Both the position numbers and the translations under genes were made by a program. 64,000 nucleotides of DNA, taken from Methylobacter tundripaludum (GTDB lineage Bacteria > Pseudomonadota > Gammaproteobacteria > Methylococcales > Methylomonadaceae). This document shows positions 5,591 to 11,334 of the stretch, piece after piece (within the stretch, counting starts at the first letter, position 1; the number at the start of each line of letters is the position of its first letter). Below the pieces are notes generated by a model. That model saw only the letters and a list, made by a program, of their open reading frames with translations, was not told the origin of the DNA and did no database searches. The stretch is from positions 1-64,000 of the forward strand of contig NZ_PTIY01000006.1 of assembly GCF_002934365.1 (NCBI RefSeq), read 5' to 3'.

Positions 5591-5824
5591 TCAGCCATTA
5601 CCGCCCACTTCCAAAATAATAATGTATTCATGATCGCCCGAACGGGTTTCCAGCACCTTATGCCCGTTGATCCGGCACCAGGCCGGGATGTCCTGCATGA
5701 CGCCCGGATCGGTGCAGATAACCTCCAACTGGTCGCCTGATTTAAGCTGCTTGACTTTATCCTGAGTGCGGATGACCGGTAACGGGCACAACAGGCGGCG
5801 GGCGTTTAAAGTTTCTCTATTCAT
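5591..5824 (-). CDS. TusA/SirA-family sulfur carrier
   Basis: A small protein of about 77 residues with the family signature around a reactive cysteine (RRLLCPLPVIRT). It is expected to carry persulfide sulfur. The start ATG at 5822-5824 overlaps the stop of the upstream thiouridylase-like gene (ATGA junction), so the two are translationally coupled. That arrangement suggests this TusA paralogue feeds the PP-loop enzyme rather than acting as the general cellular TusA. A further in-frame ATG nine bases upstream is possible. Confidence 0.88.
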   Translation of the reverse strand: MNRETLNARRLLCPLPVIRTQDKVKQLKSGDQLEVICTDPGVMQDIPAWCRINGHKVLETRSGDHEYIIILEVGGNG

Positions 5825-6876
5825 ATATACCATTCTTGCGGAATCTCTTCTGTGCCGAACGGCTTGACCTGAATAACCCGTTCGGAACCCGCTTTATCGG
5901 TGATGCTCACATCGACTTGCTCGGCATTGCGCCCCTGGCCGTAGCGGGCGGTAATTCTGGCCGCCAGGAACAAATCCTCGGCCGAAGGCGAACCGTCCAC
6001 CAGCACCAATGGCCCTGCATGGCTGGTGCAATTCATCGTGATGAATTCTTTTTTGTAGCCCTGCATGAAGCGGCCTTCGCCTTCCTCCCTGGCGACAATA
6101 ACCTTAAAGTTTTGTCCCGGCCTGATGTGCCTGCCGACTTTCAGCAGCATCACATCGTCCAGGTCGTATTGTTTGTCGCCGTCGCGCGCTTTCCATAAAT
6201 CGACCAGTTTGGCCGAATAGTTGGCATCGGTCAGGAAACAGCAGCCGCCCGCAGGCTGGGCGTAGTCGTCAAAACCAAACTGCCGGGCCATCGCCATCTG
6301 CGGCTTGCGCGAGCGCCCGGTAAAATCATACAGCTTCTCCCGATCGACCCAACCTTCCCGTTCCGGCAGGGTGAGCGGCAAATTCTTCGCGCACAAAGGC
6401 CGCAGTAAGCGGTCATCGGCGCCTGATTCTCTCGATATGATCGGCATCGTATCCTTGCGTTGCGACATCGGCCGTTGGCCGATCACTTCGCCGGTTATGA
6501 TGAAGTCGAAATCGTTTTCCACGATCCACTGCTTGGCCTTGTTGACCATGAAAATCTTGCAGTCCAGGCAAGGATTCATGTGCGCGCCGTAGCCGTGTTT
6601 CGGGTTGATCAGGACATCTTTGTATTCTTCGATCACGTCGACGATATGCAGCTTCATGCCCAGCTGTTCGGCGACCCAGAGGGAATTGTTGCGTTTAGGC
6701 TTGGCCTTGTCATTGGCCCGGATAGCATGGGTGTGGCCTTCCACGCAAAAACCGGTAAAGAAGTTGATGCCTTCGACATGGACGCCCTGCTCCATGATGG
6801 TTTTCGCAGCCAGCATCGAATCCAGTCCGCCGGAAATTAACGCCACTGCTTTTCTTTGTTTACTCATATCACTCAA
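5821..6876 (-). CDS. PP-loop tRNA thiouridylase-like protein with C-terminal NFACT-R-type domain
   Basis: The 351-residue protein has an ATP-pyrophosphatase PP-loop near the N-terminus (ALISGGLDSMLA) and resembles MnmA/ThiI-type tRNA thiolases. A CLDCK cysteine pair lies near residue 105 and another Cys pair (GGCCFL) near 213, possible sites for the persulfide or metal. The C-terminal third (VGRHIRPGQNFKVIVARE onward) resembles the RNA-binding NFACT-R domain found attached to some of these enzymes. Genomes often annotate such proteins as tRNA (5-methylaminomethyl-2-thiouridylate) methyltransferase, but they are shorter than MnmA and the target base is unknown. It is coupled to a TusA carrier downstream. 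Confidence 0.82.
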   Translation of the reverse strand: MSDMSKQRKAVALISGGLDSMLAAKTIMEQGVHVEGINFFTGFCVEGHTHAIRANDKAKPKRNNSLWVAEQLGMKLHIVDVIEEYKDVLINPKHGYGAHMNPCLDCKIFMVNKAKQWIVENDFDFIITGEVIGQRPMSQRKDTMPIISRESGADDRLLRPLCAKNLPLTLPEREGWVDREKLYDFTGRSRKPQMAMARQFGFDDYAQPAGGCCFLTDANYSAKLVDLWKARDGDKQYDLDDVMLLKVGRHIRPGQNFKVIVAREEGEGRFMQGYKKEFITMNCTSHAGPLVLVDGSPSAEDLFLAARITARYGQGRNAEQVDVSITDKAGSERVIQVKPFGTEEIPQEWYI

Positions 6877-6946
6877 AAATTGGGAAAATTTGCCTATTAT
6901 ACCGGCTTATCTTCCAATTTGGCTTTCAATTCCATGTTCCGGCTTC

Positions 6947-7001
6947 GTAGGTACGCTTTGCGTAGTTTTCGGCGCTCAATGGTATGCACAGCGTACCCTA
7001 C
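6947..7001. repeat. dispersed palindrome (GTAGGTACGC ... GCGTACCCTAC)
   Basis: GTAGGTACGC at 6947 pairs with GCGTACCCTAC ending at 7001. The non-coding stretch 6877-7177 contains this repeat, the imperfect attC-like palindrome at 7101-7163 and the ribosome site of the chitosanase gene. I see no gene in it. Confidence 0.5.
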
Positions 7002-7100
7002 ATGGCTGGGTCGAGTAATTTTTTGGGAGGGTATCGATGTCGTATTTGTTTGCATGATATGTCGCCTTGACCTATACTCTAGCCAAGTAAAAACAACAAG

Positions 7101-7163
7101 ATAGCTTTAATTAAGCATGATTATACGACACATCACACTGATGTCGTATATATTACGTTAGCT
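7101..7163 (+). other. degenerate attC site (left edge of cassette cluster)
   Basis: An imperfect palindrome with outer arms ATAGCT/AGCTAT and inner arms TATACGACA/TGTCGTATA. It ends in ACGTTAGCT, one base off the attC core GTTRRRY and nearly complementary to the R'' box of the next attC. The left R''-like box is poor. It would be the attC of a cassette now lost to the left. Confidence 0.5.
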
Positions 7164-7177
7164 ATTAAGGAGAAGTT

Positions 7178-7933
7178 ATGCGTATCCAAGCATTTGTTGT
7201 AATGTTGTTTCTGTGCGGCTACTCACTTGCCGAAGAAAAATACACACCACCTCAAAGTAGTGCGCTTGGTGGGGTGAGCTTCGACGGAACGGCAGTTGGG
7301 CAACAATTTCATTCGCGTTTTACTGAATGCGATATGAAAAATATGTGTGATGGAAAAAAATTAAAATATGGTTGCAGCAGTGACCAGAATCACAACACAA
7401 CAATACTAAAATTGAAAAACGACACCATTTTTTATGACGCAAAAATGGGACTTGACGCGGATGGGTCGCCATACTCAAAAAATACACCTGGGCAAACAGA
7501 TCAACCTGAAACGTCGTTACGCTATCCTCTTTCAGGCAAGCCTAGCATTAATGCTGACCGCGTTCCTTTTATAGTTATTCCTTTGGGCGGTTTTGATAAC
7601 GAGTTGGGAGTTACAATTGGTGATGTAGCTGCGGTTGTCTATGGTCAAAAACGTGTATTTGCTGTTGTTGCGGATCAAGGGCCTAAGTGTAAATTAGGTG
7701 AAGGCTCAATACAGCTTCATGAACTACTCGGTCATACGGTTTGTAAGGCTAGAGATTCCAAAGGCGACTGCGTAAAACTCCGCAACGTTGGCATTGATAA
7801 AAACGTCCAGTATTTTATCTTTCCTGGAACACACAAAGAACTTATGCTGGGTTTAACTCCACAAAATATCATTGAGCATATTAATTCCATTGGTGAAACG
7901 TCTTGGCAAAAGCTAACAGCATCTGCCGAGTAA
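7178..7933 (+). CDS. secreted GH75-family chitosanase-like protein (cassette 1)
   Basis: Signal peptide at residues 1-18 (MRIQAFVVMLFLCGYSLA) followed by a domain resembling glycoside hydrolase family 75 chitosanases: FYDAKMGLDADGSPYS, PFIVIPLGGF, GDVAAVVYG and VVADQGPKCKLGEGS. The Asp of VADQGP (residue 166) and the Glu of GEGS (175) are the likely catalytic acids. It would cleave chitosan outside the cytoplasm. Six cysteines suggest disulfides in an exported protein. A strong ribosome site (AAGGAGAAGTT) precedes the ATG. The stop lies seven bases before attC1, as expected for a cassette gene. The gene is AT-rich compared with its surroundings. GH75 is best known from fungi and some bacteria; assignment is from motif memory. 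Confidence 0.78.
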   Translation: MRIQAFVVMLFLCGYSLAEEKYTPPQSSALGGVSFDGTAVGQQFHSRFTECDMKNMCDGKKLKYGCSSDQNHNTTILKLKNDTIFYDAKMGLDADGSPYSKNTPGQTDQPETSLRYPLSGKPSINADRVPFIVIPLGGFDNELGVTIGDVAAVVYGQKRVFAVVADQGPKCKLGEGSIQLHELLGHTVCKARDSKGDCVKLRNVGIDKNVQYFIFPGTHKELMLGLTPQNIIEHINSIGETSWQKLTASAE

Positions 7934-7940
7934 CAGCATT

Positions 7941-8063
7941 GGCTAACAAGTCGGTCAAAGGGACGCGCCGCCCGTTGGCGGTTTTGAAGTCCAGTCTTTT
8001 ATCAAGGTTCGGCGGCTTCGCTCAAGCCCAGAGAGCGGCGCGCCCCTTACCGTAACGTTGGGC
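7941..8063 (+). other. integron attC site 1
   Basis: A 123-base imperfect palindrome. R'' is GGCTAAC (7941-7947) and R' is GTTGGGC (8057-8063, fits GTTRRRY). Inner arms AAAGGGACGCGCCGC (7957-7971) and GCGGCGCGCCCCTTA (8035-8049) pair with a one-base mismatch, giving the asymmetric stem typical of attC. It separates the chitosanase gene from the membrane-protein gene. Confidence 0.85.
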
Positions 8064-8083
8064 GTCATAGGAATATTCCTCGC

Positions 8084-8947
8084 ATGCAATTCACATTCCC
8101 GCCGGGCCGCACCTGGTTCTATGAGGTGTGGCATCACAAAGCATCGGTGCTCGGGGCCGTCCTAGCAATCATTTCTCTATCGCTAGCGCACTACGCTGGC
8201 TTTTTGATGAAAGTTCCACTCCAGATCGTGGCAGTAGCCGGAATGTCGCTCGCCAAAGGAGTGACCGCTACATTTCTGTTTTATATGTTTTTTTGCGCGG
8301 TTTTTGCGCGGGTATTTACTTCGATGTTGCAGCTCGTTGTCCTTCCATTTCTCGCCTTAACCGATCGGCTGGAACGCGGATTCAGCCGAAAAATGGATTG
8401 GACACATCAGCGCCGCTTCGTCCGATCGCATACCCAGACCATCAAGTGGGAAGGACACATTTGGATTGCTATTCAAGCATTTTTGTTTCTTCTACTGATG
8501 TTGGGGATATACGTGGAATTTACGATTACTTGGATTTCAGGTGTTGGGCTATTCACGTCAATAGTATTAGTCCTCCTGTCCGGGCTTGTCCGATCTGGAT
8601 TCTTTCTTCAACCAAGTCCAAGCACCTTTTCCAGAAAAATCAAAAAGCGTCCCGCGCGCTCAGGACGTGCGGCATCAGCTGCGTTTGTAACAATCACGGC
8701 AGCTCTTATTCTCGTGGCGTTTTTCATGGGGGGCATGCGCGCAAGTTTGTTACGAGATCAAGAGCCGCAGATGACAATGACAAAAGACTTCACTGGTATG
8801 GCTACAGTAATTGCAAGTTCTGAAGGGGCGCTGCTTTTGTTTCAAAAACAGGGCATCGAGCTTCGATATATCTACTCCACCCCTGAATTTACGACATCAA
8901 TAGAAACCAAGCCGGTGTTCCCGCCAATCGGCTCTAAGAAGGAGTGA
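8084..8947 (+). CDS. predicted multi-pass membrane protein of unknown function (cassette 2)
   Basis: The 287-residue product has about five hydrophobic segments: near residues 22-46, 62-98, 128-156, 158-178 and 200-223. Basic loops lie between them (SRKMDWTHQRRF; SRKIKKRPARSGRAA), and a soluble tail of about 55 residues follows. I recognise no family. The gene lies entirely between attC1 and attC2, begins 20 bases after the attC1 core and stops 7 bases before attC2, so it is a complete single-gene cassette. Like most integron cassette genes it has no assignable function. Confidence 0.75.
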   Translation: MQFTFPPGRTWFYEVWHHKASVLGAVLAIISLSLAHYAGFLMKVPLQIVAVAGMSLAKGVTATFLFYMFFCAVFARVFTSMLQLVVLPFLALTDRLERGFSRKMDWTHQRRFVRSHTQTIKWEGHIWIAIQAFLFLLLMLGIYVEFTITWISGVGLFTSIVLVLLSGLVRSGFFLQPSPSTFSRKIKKRPARSGRAASAAFVTITAALILVAFFMGGMRASLLRDQEPQMTMTKDFTGMATVIASSEGALLLFQKQGIELRYIYSTPEFTTSIETKPVFPPIGSKKE

Positions 8948-8954
8948 CAGTGAC

Positions 8955-9022
8955 GCCCAACCCATCATTTCACCGGACCTGCGCGAAAAGCCGCGCAGGC
9001 CAATGAATTTAAACGCTAGAGC
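8955..9022 (+). other. integron attC site 2
   Basis: A compact 68-base attC. R'' is GCCCAAC (8955-8961, perfect RYYYAAC). The inner hairpin GGACCTGCGCG/CGCGCAGGCC has a single unpaired A in the left arm, the extrahelical base that orients integrase. The R' end reads GCTAGAG (9015-9021), a degenerate form of GTTRRRY. The R'' complements the R' of attC1 exactly over 11 bases. Confidence 0.85.
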
Positions 9023-9039
9023 TCTCAGGTCATCACACC

Positions 9040-9666
9040 ATGCCTACATCAGTCACATGTCTTTGGAATGGCTCTGCAATTGGGATCGCAGAAGCTATCG
9101 AAATTAGAGACAGGGGAGATTCGCCTCTGTTCTTGTGCGTTCATTGCGGGGAAAGGGTAAAAGCCCACTCAGGCGGCGGGCATACCAGCGCTCACTTTGA
9201 GCATGTCCAAAGGAATCCAGAATGCCCCTTAAGTCACAGTGACTCCTATCAATATGGAGGCATTAAGGGAGCGAATTGGCAAAACACGGACGCTGAGGAT
9301 GCTATTGAGGGCTATGCGAGAGAGCGAAAATACCTCGCACATCACCGCAACGGAGCTATTGTTCTGCAATGCAAAGAAAGAGATAACTATACGTGCAGGG
9401 CGTGTGGATTTTCTTTGCGCGTAAACGGAAGAAGCATTGTCGAATGTCATCACCTAGTTCCATTGGCAAATAGTCGCGAGCGAGTGACATCGGTCAATGA
9501 TCTTGTTTGCCTGTGTCCGACATGCCACAGAGTTGCGCATACGTCAAATCCTCCACTCCCGCTTGAAGAAATAGCGAAACTTACAAAAGGTTCTAACCCT
9601 ACGTTGCAGGGGACGCCCGGCAAGCGGTGTGCTTCCAACCAATCCGCATCGCGCGGTCGCCCCTGA
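9040..9666 (+). CDS. HNH endonuclease-family protein with N-terminal zinc-ribbon-like region (cassette 3)
   Basis: The 208-residue protein has an N-terminal Cys/His region (CVHCGE, then AHFEHV...PECPLSH) and a C-terminal HNH domain: YTCRACGF, VECHHLVPLANS, VNDLVCLCPTCHRVAHT. The two CxxC pairs bind a structural zinc and the HH of ECHHL is the catalytic site. The reading frame runs into attC3: the last 25 or so residues (from SNPTLQGTPGKR) are encoded by the recombination site itself, which is common in cassette genes. Targets are unknown; it could act on DNA during defence or competition. The ATG lies 18 bases after the end of attC2. Confidence 0.85.
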   Translation: MPTSVTCLWNGSAIGIAEAIEIRDRGDSPLFLCVHCGERVKAHSGGGHTSAHFEHVQRNPECPLSHSDSYQYGGIKGANWQNTDAEDAIEGYARERKYLAHHRNGAIVLQCKERDNYTCRACGFSLRVNGRSIVECHHLVPLANSRERVTSVNDLVCLCPTCHRVAHTSNPPLPLEEIAKLTKGSNPTLQGTPGKRCASNQSASRGRP

Positions 9667-9680
9667 ACTCCACGTTAAAT
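9591..9680 (+). other. integron attC site 3
   Basis: R'' is TTCTAAC (9591-9597) and R' is GTTAAAT (9674-9680, perfect GTTRRRY). The inner arms GCAGGGGACGCC (from 9606) and GGTCGCCCCTG (9655-9665) pair with one extra A in the left arm. It overlaps the 3' end of the HNH gene, whose TGA is at 9664-9666. Confidence 0.85.
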
Positions 9681-9782: not shown

Positions 9783-9906
9783 CCGGGATGATCTTGTCTG
9801 GCTCTTACCACTAATTTTGAAATCGCCCTACAACCATCCGCGTAAACCCGTTCAATCCGTGTCGCCTAGAGGCGCCTACTTTTGGCATCCGTGTTCCATT
9901 GCTTTA

Positions 9907-11334
9907 TCAACCGAAATTGATCTTAGCCTCCAGATCGTTACTGGAATCGGCATTTTTCAGCGCCTCTTCCAGACTGATCAGTCCTTCTTTATAAAGCCCG
10001 TACAAAGCGTCGTCGAATGTTCGCATGCCTTTGCTGCCGCTCGACGCCATTGCCGATTTGATTTCATTCAATTCCCCTTTCAAAATCAGGCTCGCGATAT
10101 GAGGGGTGTTGATCATCACCTCGATGGCCGCGCAGCGCTTCCCCGCCGTGTCGGGAATCAGGCGCTGGGAAATAACGGCGTTTAAATTGGTGGCAAGATC
10201 CATAAACAACTGGGCATGATAATCATGGGGGAACATGTTGACTACCCGCTCCATGGCCTGGTTCGCGTTGTTAGAGTGCATGGTCGATATGCACAAGTGG
10301 CCGGTATTGGCCAGTTCCAGCGCGGCCGACATGGTTTCACGGTCCCGGATCTCGCCGATCAAGATAACATCGGGCGCTTCCCGCAAGCAAGCTTTCAGCG
10401 CTCTGGCATAGGAATCCGTATCCACGCCGACTTCGCGCTGGTTGACGATGGACATCAGGTTCGGGTGCGAGAATTCGACCGGGTCTTCGATGGTCAGAAT
10501 ATGACCGGCTGAATTGGCGTTGCGGTGGTTAATCATGGCCGCCAGCGTGGTCGACTTTCCCGATCCGGTGCCGCCGACCATCAACAGCAGCCCCCGTTTG
10601 GCCATGATCAGTTCCATCAAAATATCCGGCGTGCCTAAATCCTTGCCGGTCGGAATGACCGATGGAATCAGGCGCATCACCAAACCGACGGTTTTGCGCT
10701 GGTAAAAGGCATTGGCGCGAAAACGCGCGCTGCCGTCCGGCAGTGTGATAGCAAAGTCCAGGTCCCGCTTGGCTAAAAACTCGTCGATTTGTTCCTGGGT
10801 CATAATCCCGAATGCGCCGGACTGGGTCAGCTCGGGCGTCAGCAGGAAATCGTCCAGCGCCACGACCTTGCCGTAAATTTTGGCTTTGACCGGCGAATCG
10901 ACCGTTAAAAACAAATCCGAAGCGTTCAGTTTAGCCATTGCCGCCAGATACGGCAGGATGTTTAAATCGTCTTCCGGCGTTGCGCCCAAAATTTGATAGC
11001 TGACAGGCTCCGGCTCATCGGTTTTTGCCTGCGCTGAATCGGGGACGATCAACAATACCAAGCCGTTATCCTCGACCTTGGCGCTAACCCTGAATTTCTC
11101 CCCGTCAGGCGCGGCGCATTTAAAATCAAGCGCTTTGTTTTGGACTAATTCCTGCTTCTGGGCGTCGTTAATCAGGCTGAAGGTGATTTCTCTGATGATA
11201 TTCGGGCTTAACTCGTTTTTACCCAGGGGATATTCCTCCCCGGCCAAGCCCAACAGCGCCGGTGAGCCCGCCTTTAAAGACAAGCTATCGGCGTTTTTTT
11301 CCAGCATTAGTTTTAAATAAGGTGTCAGGGTCAT
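9907..11334 (-). CDS. PilT/PilU-family type IV pilus ATPase with duplicated N-terminal domain
   Basis: A retraction-type hexameric ATPase at the cytoplasmic base of type IV pili. Motifs: Walker A GGTGSGKSTTL, Asp box IEDPVEF, Walker B VILIGEIRD, His box TGHLCISTMHSNNANQAM. At 475 residues it is about 100-130 longer than PilT. The extra N-terminal part (residues 1-105) is a second, diverged copy of the PilT N-terminal domain: YLKLMLEKNADSLSLKAGSP matches YLAAMAKLNASDLFLTVDSP of the normal domain, and LDFKCAAPDGEKFRVSA matches LDFAITLPDGSARFRAN. It is followed upstream by a second PilU-type ATPase gene, with a repeat element between. Confidence 0.92.
   Translation of the reverse strand: MTLTPYLKLMLEKNADSLSLKAGSPALLGLAGEEYPLGKNELSPNIIREITFSLINDAQKQELVQNKALDFKCAAPDGEKFRVSAKVEDNGLVLLIVPDSAQAKTDEPEPVSYQILGATPEDDLNILPYLAAMAKLNASDLFLTVDSPVKAKIYGKVVALDDFLLTPELTQSGAFGIMTQEQIDEFLAKRDLDFAITLPDGSARFRANAFYQRKTVGLVMRLIPSVIPTGKDLGTPDILMELIMAKRGLLLMVGGTGSGKSTTLAAMINHRNANSAGHILTIEDPVEFSHPNLMSIVNQREVGVDTDSYARALKACLREAPDVILIGEIRDRETMSAALELANTGHLCISTMHSNNANQAMERVVNMFPHDYHAQLFMDLATNLNAVISQRLIPDTAGKRCAAIEVMINTPHIASLILKGELNEIKSAMASSGSKGMRTFDDALYGLYKEGLISLEEALKNADSSNDLEAKINFG

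Follow-up and report, generated by a model that had tools for sequence, protein, structure and literature searches.

A probable decayed chromosomal integron with three gene cassettes between a ThiI-like and a PilU-like gene in Methylobacter

Introduction

In contig C6 of a Methylobacter genome (G000) there is a region, positions 7158-9674 of the window (i.e., the whole 64-kb stretch of DNA analysed here), in which three plus-strand genes lie within a minus-strand neighbourhood. The original prediction described it as a cluster of attC-delimited cassettes with no integrase (CALIN). The usual explanation of CALINs is that they are broken integrons, with the break itself not visible. The question that this locus raises is whether the three genes are true integron cassettes and, if so, what became of the integron to which they belonged.

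Three attC sites and the circular past of the cassettes

The attC sites were searched with two covariance models, neither of which contained a site from the window. R1 was built from six attC sites that belong to the two intact integrons of G000, and R2, extended from the R1 matches with a structure set by the analyst, comprised 30 attC sites drawn from G000 and from five congeners. The R2 pairs covary (score 0.227 versus 0.079 when shuffled), in an alignment that was fitted to the structure, and the E-values given here are rough due to the short calibration of the models. At E ≤ 10, R2 yielded exactly three matches in the window, all on the plus strand, and R1 found the same three sites alone, weakly. 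They are attC1 (7941-8063; R2 49.3 bits, E 1.7e-9), attC2 (8955-9021; 26.4 bits, E 5.4e-4), which has a degenerate R' (GCTAGAG versus GTTRRRY), and attC3 (9591-9680; 29.2 bits, E 1.1e-4). This search, which had been suggested for 7941-8063, 8955-9022 and 9591-9680, gave a match in each place, and the claim that every unit is closed by an attC site is borne out. Along 117 bp, attC1 has 93% identity with attC on contig C8 and 84% with attC on C4. When R2 was run on the whole genome, it listed 27 attC at E ≤ 1, spread over ten contigs; there, attC2 reached only E 0.035 and attC3 was absent from the list, probably because of a limit of the first-look filter. Our own attC scanner gave a noisy output headed by attC1 and attC3, in which attC2, with its degenerate R', went unranked.

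In a circular cassette, the attC combines R'' with the 5' end of that same cassette. Over six arrays, that of the window and five others, 90 of the 96 variable positions of R'' fitted the 5' end of the cassette to which it belongs, versus 57 of 96 for the R' now standing at its own 3' side and 58.8 when the cassettes were permuted (p ≤ 5e-5); for the window array alone, these values were 10/12 for the own 5' end and 5/12 in place. The R'' of attC2 (GCCCAAC, 8955-8961; TGACGCCCAAC up to 8961) and the stretch 8057-8067, in the R' region of attC1, are exact reverse complements. Each unit passes the test for a past circle, its R'' being complementary to its own 5' end. The argument considered strongest in the original prediction is thus correct, and it also holds for other Methylobacter arrays. 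The boundaries that it placed at 7158, 8058, 9016 and 9675 are indeed G^TT positions (G^CT in attC2). The three units are integron gene cassettes.

Cassette 1 (7158-8057) contains a plus-strand gene (7178-7933) encoding a protein that looks exported and contains a GH75 (chitosanase-like) domain (PF07335, 36.5 bits, cut-off 27), which has a 41% relative in one of 200 genomes of the family and weaker matches in six. Cassette 2 (8058-9015) contains a plus-strand gene (8084-8947) for a 287-aa predicted membrane protein of no known family; Pfam, NCBIfam, and PADLOC gave no match for this protein, and relatives of the gene were found neither among 200 family genomes nor in plasmids. Cassette 3 (9016-9674) carries a plus-strand gene (9040-9666) for an HNH endonuclease with a CoiA/DUF7830-like N-terminal domain (PF25169 and PF01844, both over cut-off), for which only partial relatives were found; in two other genomes, some of these have attC on their flanks. 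Its stop at 9666 lies within attC3, so the HNH gene does run into this site, as proposed. PADLOC and NCBIfam recognised no system from the cassette genes, the HNH matches being partial. Judging from these domain matches, the cargo would consist of a GH75-like exported protein, a membrane protein, and an HNH nuclease.

The remains of a platform upstream of the array

The array had been taken for a cluster without a platform, and its left edge for an attC site. Both points have to be revised, since an attI and a 5' stub of intI persist at 7006-7157. The hairpin at 7098-7170 was considered as an attC end and dropped after comparison with the complete integron on C4, and the left-edge site is an attI, as the comparison with C4 and an alignment of 16 attI regions show. 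The segment 7006-7130 shares 82% DNA identity over 125 bp with the intI start and attI of the C4 integron. The stub comprises codons 1 to ~16 of intI (MQTNTTSIPSQKITRP; 7006-7055, minus strand), after which the intI homology ends, and it belongs to an ORF at 6897-7055 on the minus strand; its translation opens MQTNTTSIPSQKITRP, and that of the C4 integrase opens MQTNTTSAQPKKLLDQ. The attI extends over 7079-7160 (plus strand) and was delimited by the attI alignment and by a core pattern search, with the core ATGTCGTATATATTACGTTA at 7141-7160 and the crossover after G7157. The 16 aligned attI regions, from seven genomes, are conserved up to TATATTACGTTA and diverge immediately after it (G^TTA), which is the expectation for an attI x attC junction.

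A hexamer pair, TTTGCA-18-TATACT (7049-7078, plus strand), overlaps the intI start codon and would be the cassette promoter Pc, as judged by its match to the consensus only; like hexamers with the same spacing and position occur in 11 of the 16 aligned attI regions. The window attI lacks a segment of ~20 nt, containing one TTATACGACAA repeat, that is present in most of the other attI and likely holds an integrase-binding repeat. This loss, together with the degenerate R' of attC2, suggests that the platform is decaying.

In summary, the locus has no intact intI beside attI, as a complete integron would, and only about 16 codons remain. What is found is an attI of the IntI family heading the array and, divergent from it, a minus-strand intI remnant (7006-7055), as in a decayed sedentary chromosomal integron. 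A motif like CCYTACMnGG|CT adjoins the intI stub in the window (6990-7005), in the congener G002 (L150), and in all three platforms of the congener G003 described below (L248-L250); it may be the end of a REP-like palindrome and a deletion or joining hot spot. We also considered IntI-driven excision as the origin of these stub junctions, but did not adopt it because the window, G002, and the G003 platforms show no G^TT at their left junctions.

The same chromosomal spot in congeners

The array is flanked on the left by a ThiI/NFACT-R-domain gene (tRNA thiolation-like; 5821-6876, minus strand; Pfam PF18297 and PF02568), conserved in Methylococcaceae and with a 95% identical orthologue in Methylobacter sp. 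DP16D_bin.19, and on the right by a gene for a T2SSE-family (PilT/PilU-like) ATPase (9907-11334, minus strand; PF00437, 146 bits). At gathering thresholds, Rfam detected two tRNAs in the window and nothing else. In six congeners the gap between both anchor genes is only 164-367 bp, which represents the empty site. The flanks common to the window and the congeners extend up to ~6932 and resume from ~9836, where the stretch 9836-9906 is 93% identical to the intergenic sequence of G010. The strain comparison that had been recommended thus revealed an empty site, and none of the three cassette genes is conserved in synteny in any of 22 congeners.

The spot is not always empty in the congeners, as it may also hold an attI with another cassette or a 3' remnant of intI. 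G002 has an attI behind an intI stub with an identical junction (CCYTACATGG|CT), and its first gene is another one. G021 retains IntI residues 280-330 (96% identity), after which its contig runs out in unrelated sequence. Both contigs break off within the element or near it, and any arrays or intI there cannot be read through. An integron has therefore stood beside the ThiI-like gene in these relatives as well, and the G002 stub and the G021 remnant indicate that intI was formerly present at this spot and was lost in different ways.

In M. tundripaludum SV96, other genes occupy ~9 kb of the same intergenic spot (L021:1039-10000), and DP16D_bin.19 has there at least 5 kb in which the PilU-like gene is missing (L018:1-5181). 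No attC was found in either genome at this spot, and thus the spot receives other insertions or rearrangements too.

Integrases and integrase-less platforms elsewhere in the genome

The absence of an integrase holds locally, but not for the genome as a whole. On contig C6 no protein exceeds the cut-off of NCBIfam TIGR02249 (265 bits), the nearest being a Xer-like gene (219635-220444) under the cut-off; with no integron-integrase gene nearby and three consecutive attC in one orientation, where at least two are needed, the array falls within the definition of a CALIN. The genome-wide search for intI that had been proposed identified two integron-integrases, one on C4 (461 bits), whose protein is full length, and another on C18 (375 bits). 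An intact integron adjoins lnt and leuS in four genomes.

The attI cores are more numerous than the integrases. A pattern search yielded 6-7 copies in G000 versus two intI, with zero control hits, and the core is present in 12 of 23 congeneric genomes. One of these copies, on C8 (G000:C8:195143-199536; L147:7138-11537), is a recent integrase-less platform, with an attI 98% identical to that of C4, ~8 intI codons, and four attC. G003 has three integrase-less attI platforms (L248:8202, minus strand; L249:3589, minus strand; L250:6542, plus strand) with 5, 1, and 7 attC, respectively, which resemble that genome's complete integron over ~290 bp (89-92% identity), share one intI cut codon, and are each preceded by CCCTACC. 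These several attI heading arrays with a mere intI stub are the less ordinary part of our results, and they lie outside the window. They may stem from repeated deletions or, rather less likely, from the copying of platforms that are used in trans.

Some other observations concern the recombinases and cores of this family. The C18 integrase (G000:C18:67878-68813; L017:7864-9300) has 478 aa, with an N-terminal extension of ~150 aa, and three attC lie between it and the contig end. Other genomes of the family also have integrases whose open frames are of a similar length. A 423-aa tyrosine recombinase (G000:C3:119368-120850) has two weak attC matches directly adjoining it. The attI cores at C10:83172-83206 and C22:566-599 of G000 have no promoter-like stretch; downstream of the C22 core there are one gene and one attC, and downstream of the C10 core one gene with no attC detected.

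Origin of the locus

We consider it very probable that this locus is a decayed sedentary chromosomal integron, located between the ThiI-like and PilU-like genes, that has lost intI and retains three cassettes. This reading is based on the three attC, the circle test, the homology of the attI and the stub to C4, the divergence of the attI regions past the crossover, the two IntI of the genome, the empty sites, the remnants in G002 and G021, and the lack of synteny of the cassette genes. The ancestor at this spot would have had intI, attI, and Pc. The cassettes would have entered singly at attI through attI x attC recombination catalysed by IntI, as the G^TT boundary and the circle complementarity support. 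A later deletion of the intI body left the ~16 codons that overlap the putative Pc, the attI, and the three co-directional cassettes. Transcription of the cassettes from the putative Pc probably continues, and their mobility would be possible at most in trans, via the intact C4 integrase.

The platforms outside the window raise another explanation, i.e., that a stub-Pc-attI block lacking intI was copied to this spot, as may have happened with several others in these genomes, and is a satellite served in trans by the C4 integrase. The excess of attI cores over intI in G000, the C8 copy with its short stub and nearly identical attI, and the G003 platforms cut at one intI codon speak for it; however, G021 carries an intI 3' remnant at exactly this locus, showing that intI was formerly there, and the window attI is devoid of the segment that likely holds an integrase-binding repeat. 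We regard this explanation as rather unlikely. Just as tentative is the broader proposal of a distributed integron, in which one full integrase would act in trans on several scattered integrase-less attI platforms, the window being one of them, partly decayed; it is likewise doubtful that each platform keeps Pc by means of the first 8-17 intI codons, allowing parallel docking and expression at several loci.

Two further explanations dispense with a platform of this locus. Insertion of the cassettes by IntI at a secondary genomic site (attG), producing a CALIN without a platform of its own, has been reported (Loot et al., 2024, cited in PMC12444791), but the attI-type sequence and the intI start directly upstream already contradict it here and make it very improbable. 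That chance palindromes lie between ordinary genes is hardly credible at all: the single-strand folding of the bottom strands of the three attC gave modest z-scores (-2.1 to -2.9), as this explanation would have it, but the covariance model matches, the circle test, the attI, and the empty sites oppose it. The decayed integron is thus the reading that we retain. Since one can see the break as well as the platform of the ancestor, the empty site, and a remnant in a sister genome, the locus documents the origin of a CALIN. Should the attI copies without an integrase be live docks, these methanotrophs would not be bound to a single locus for integron capture.

Relation to known integrons

The element is of a well-known kind, a decayed chromosomal integron or CALIN. 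CALINs have been proposed to be degraded integrons (IntegronFinder 2.0, PMC9024848), and the window resembles them in having at least two attC sites with intI absent nearby; it differs in that it keeps a recognisable attI, a putative Pc, and an intI 5' stub, leftovers that do not form part of the CALIN definition.

The original prediction supposed that integrons had not been a focus in this group. This does not hold, since an attC model specific to Methylococcales has been in print since 2021 (PMC8352920), integrons have been reported in Methylococcus, i.e., in Mc7 and M. geothermalis (PMC8527097), and we found an integrase over the cut-off in 93 of 201 genomes of the family. Those systems belong to the same order or family and include complete integrons, separate attC arrays, and stand-alone integrases, but the available sections of both papers describe neither Methylobacter nor integrase-less attI platforms. 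The Delta-attI-type cassettes of class 1/2 integrons (PMC12901181) also have partial attI copies outside the native platform; in them, however, the attI piece replaces the attC downstream of a gene, whereas in the window normal attC cassettes lie downstream of the attI.

Among published systems, the closest parallel is provided by the chromosomal integrons of Xanthomonas at ilvD, where an ancestral platform occupies a fixed locus, intI has been inactivated by deletions or stops with the cassettes retained, and further CALINs are found at other loci (PMC12444791). The locus studied here shares with them the fixed-locus platform, the loss of intI, the retained cassettes, and the additional CALINs elsewhere, but it is found in another taxon and at another locus, next to the ThiI-like and PilU-like genes, and here the intact integron stands at lnt/leuS.
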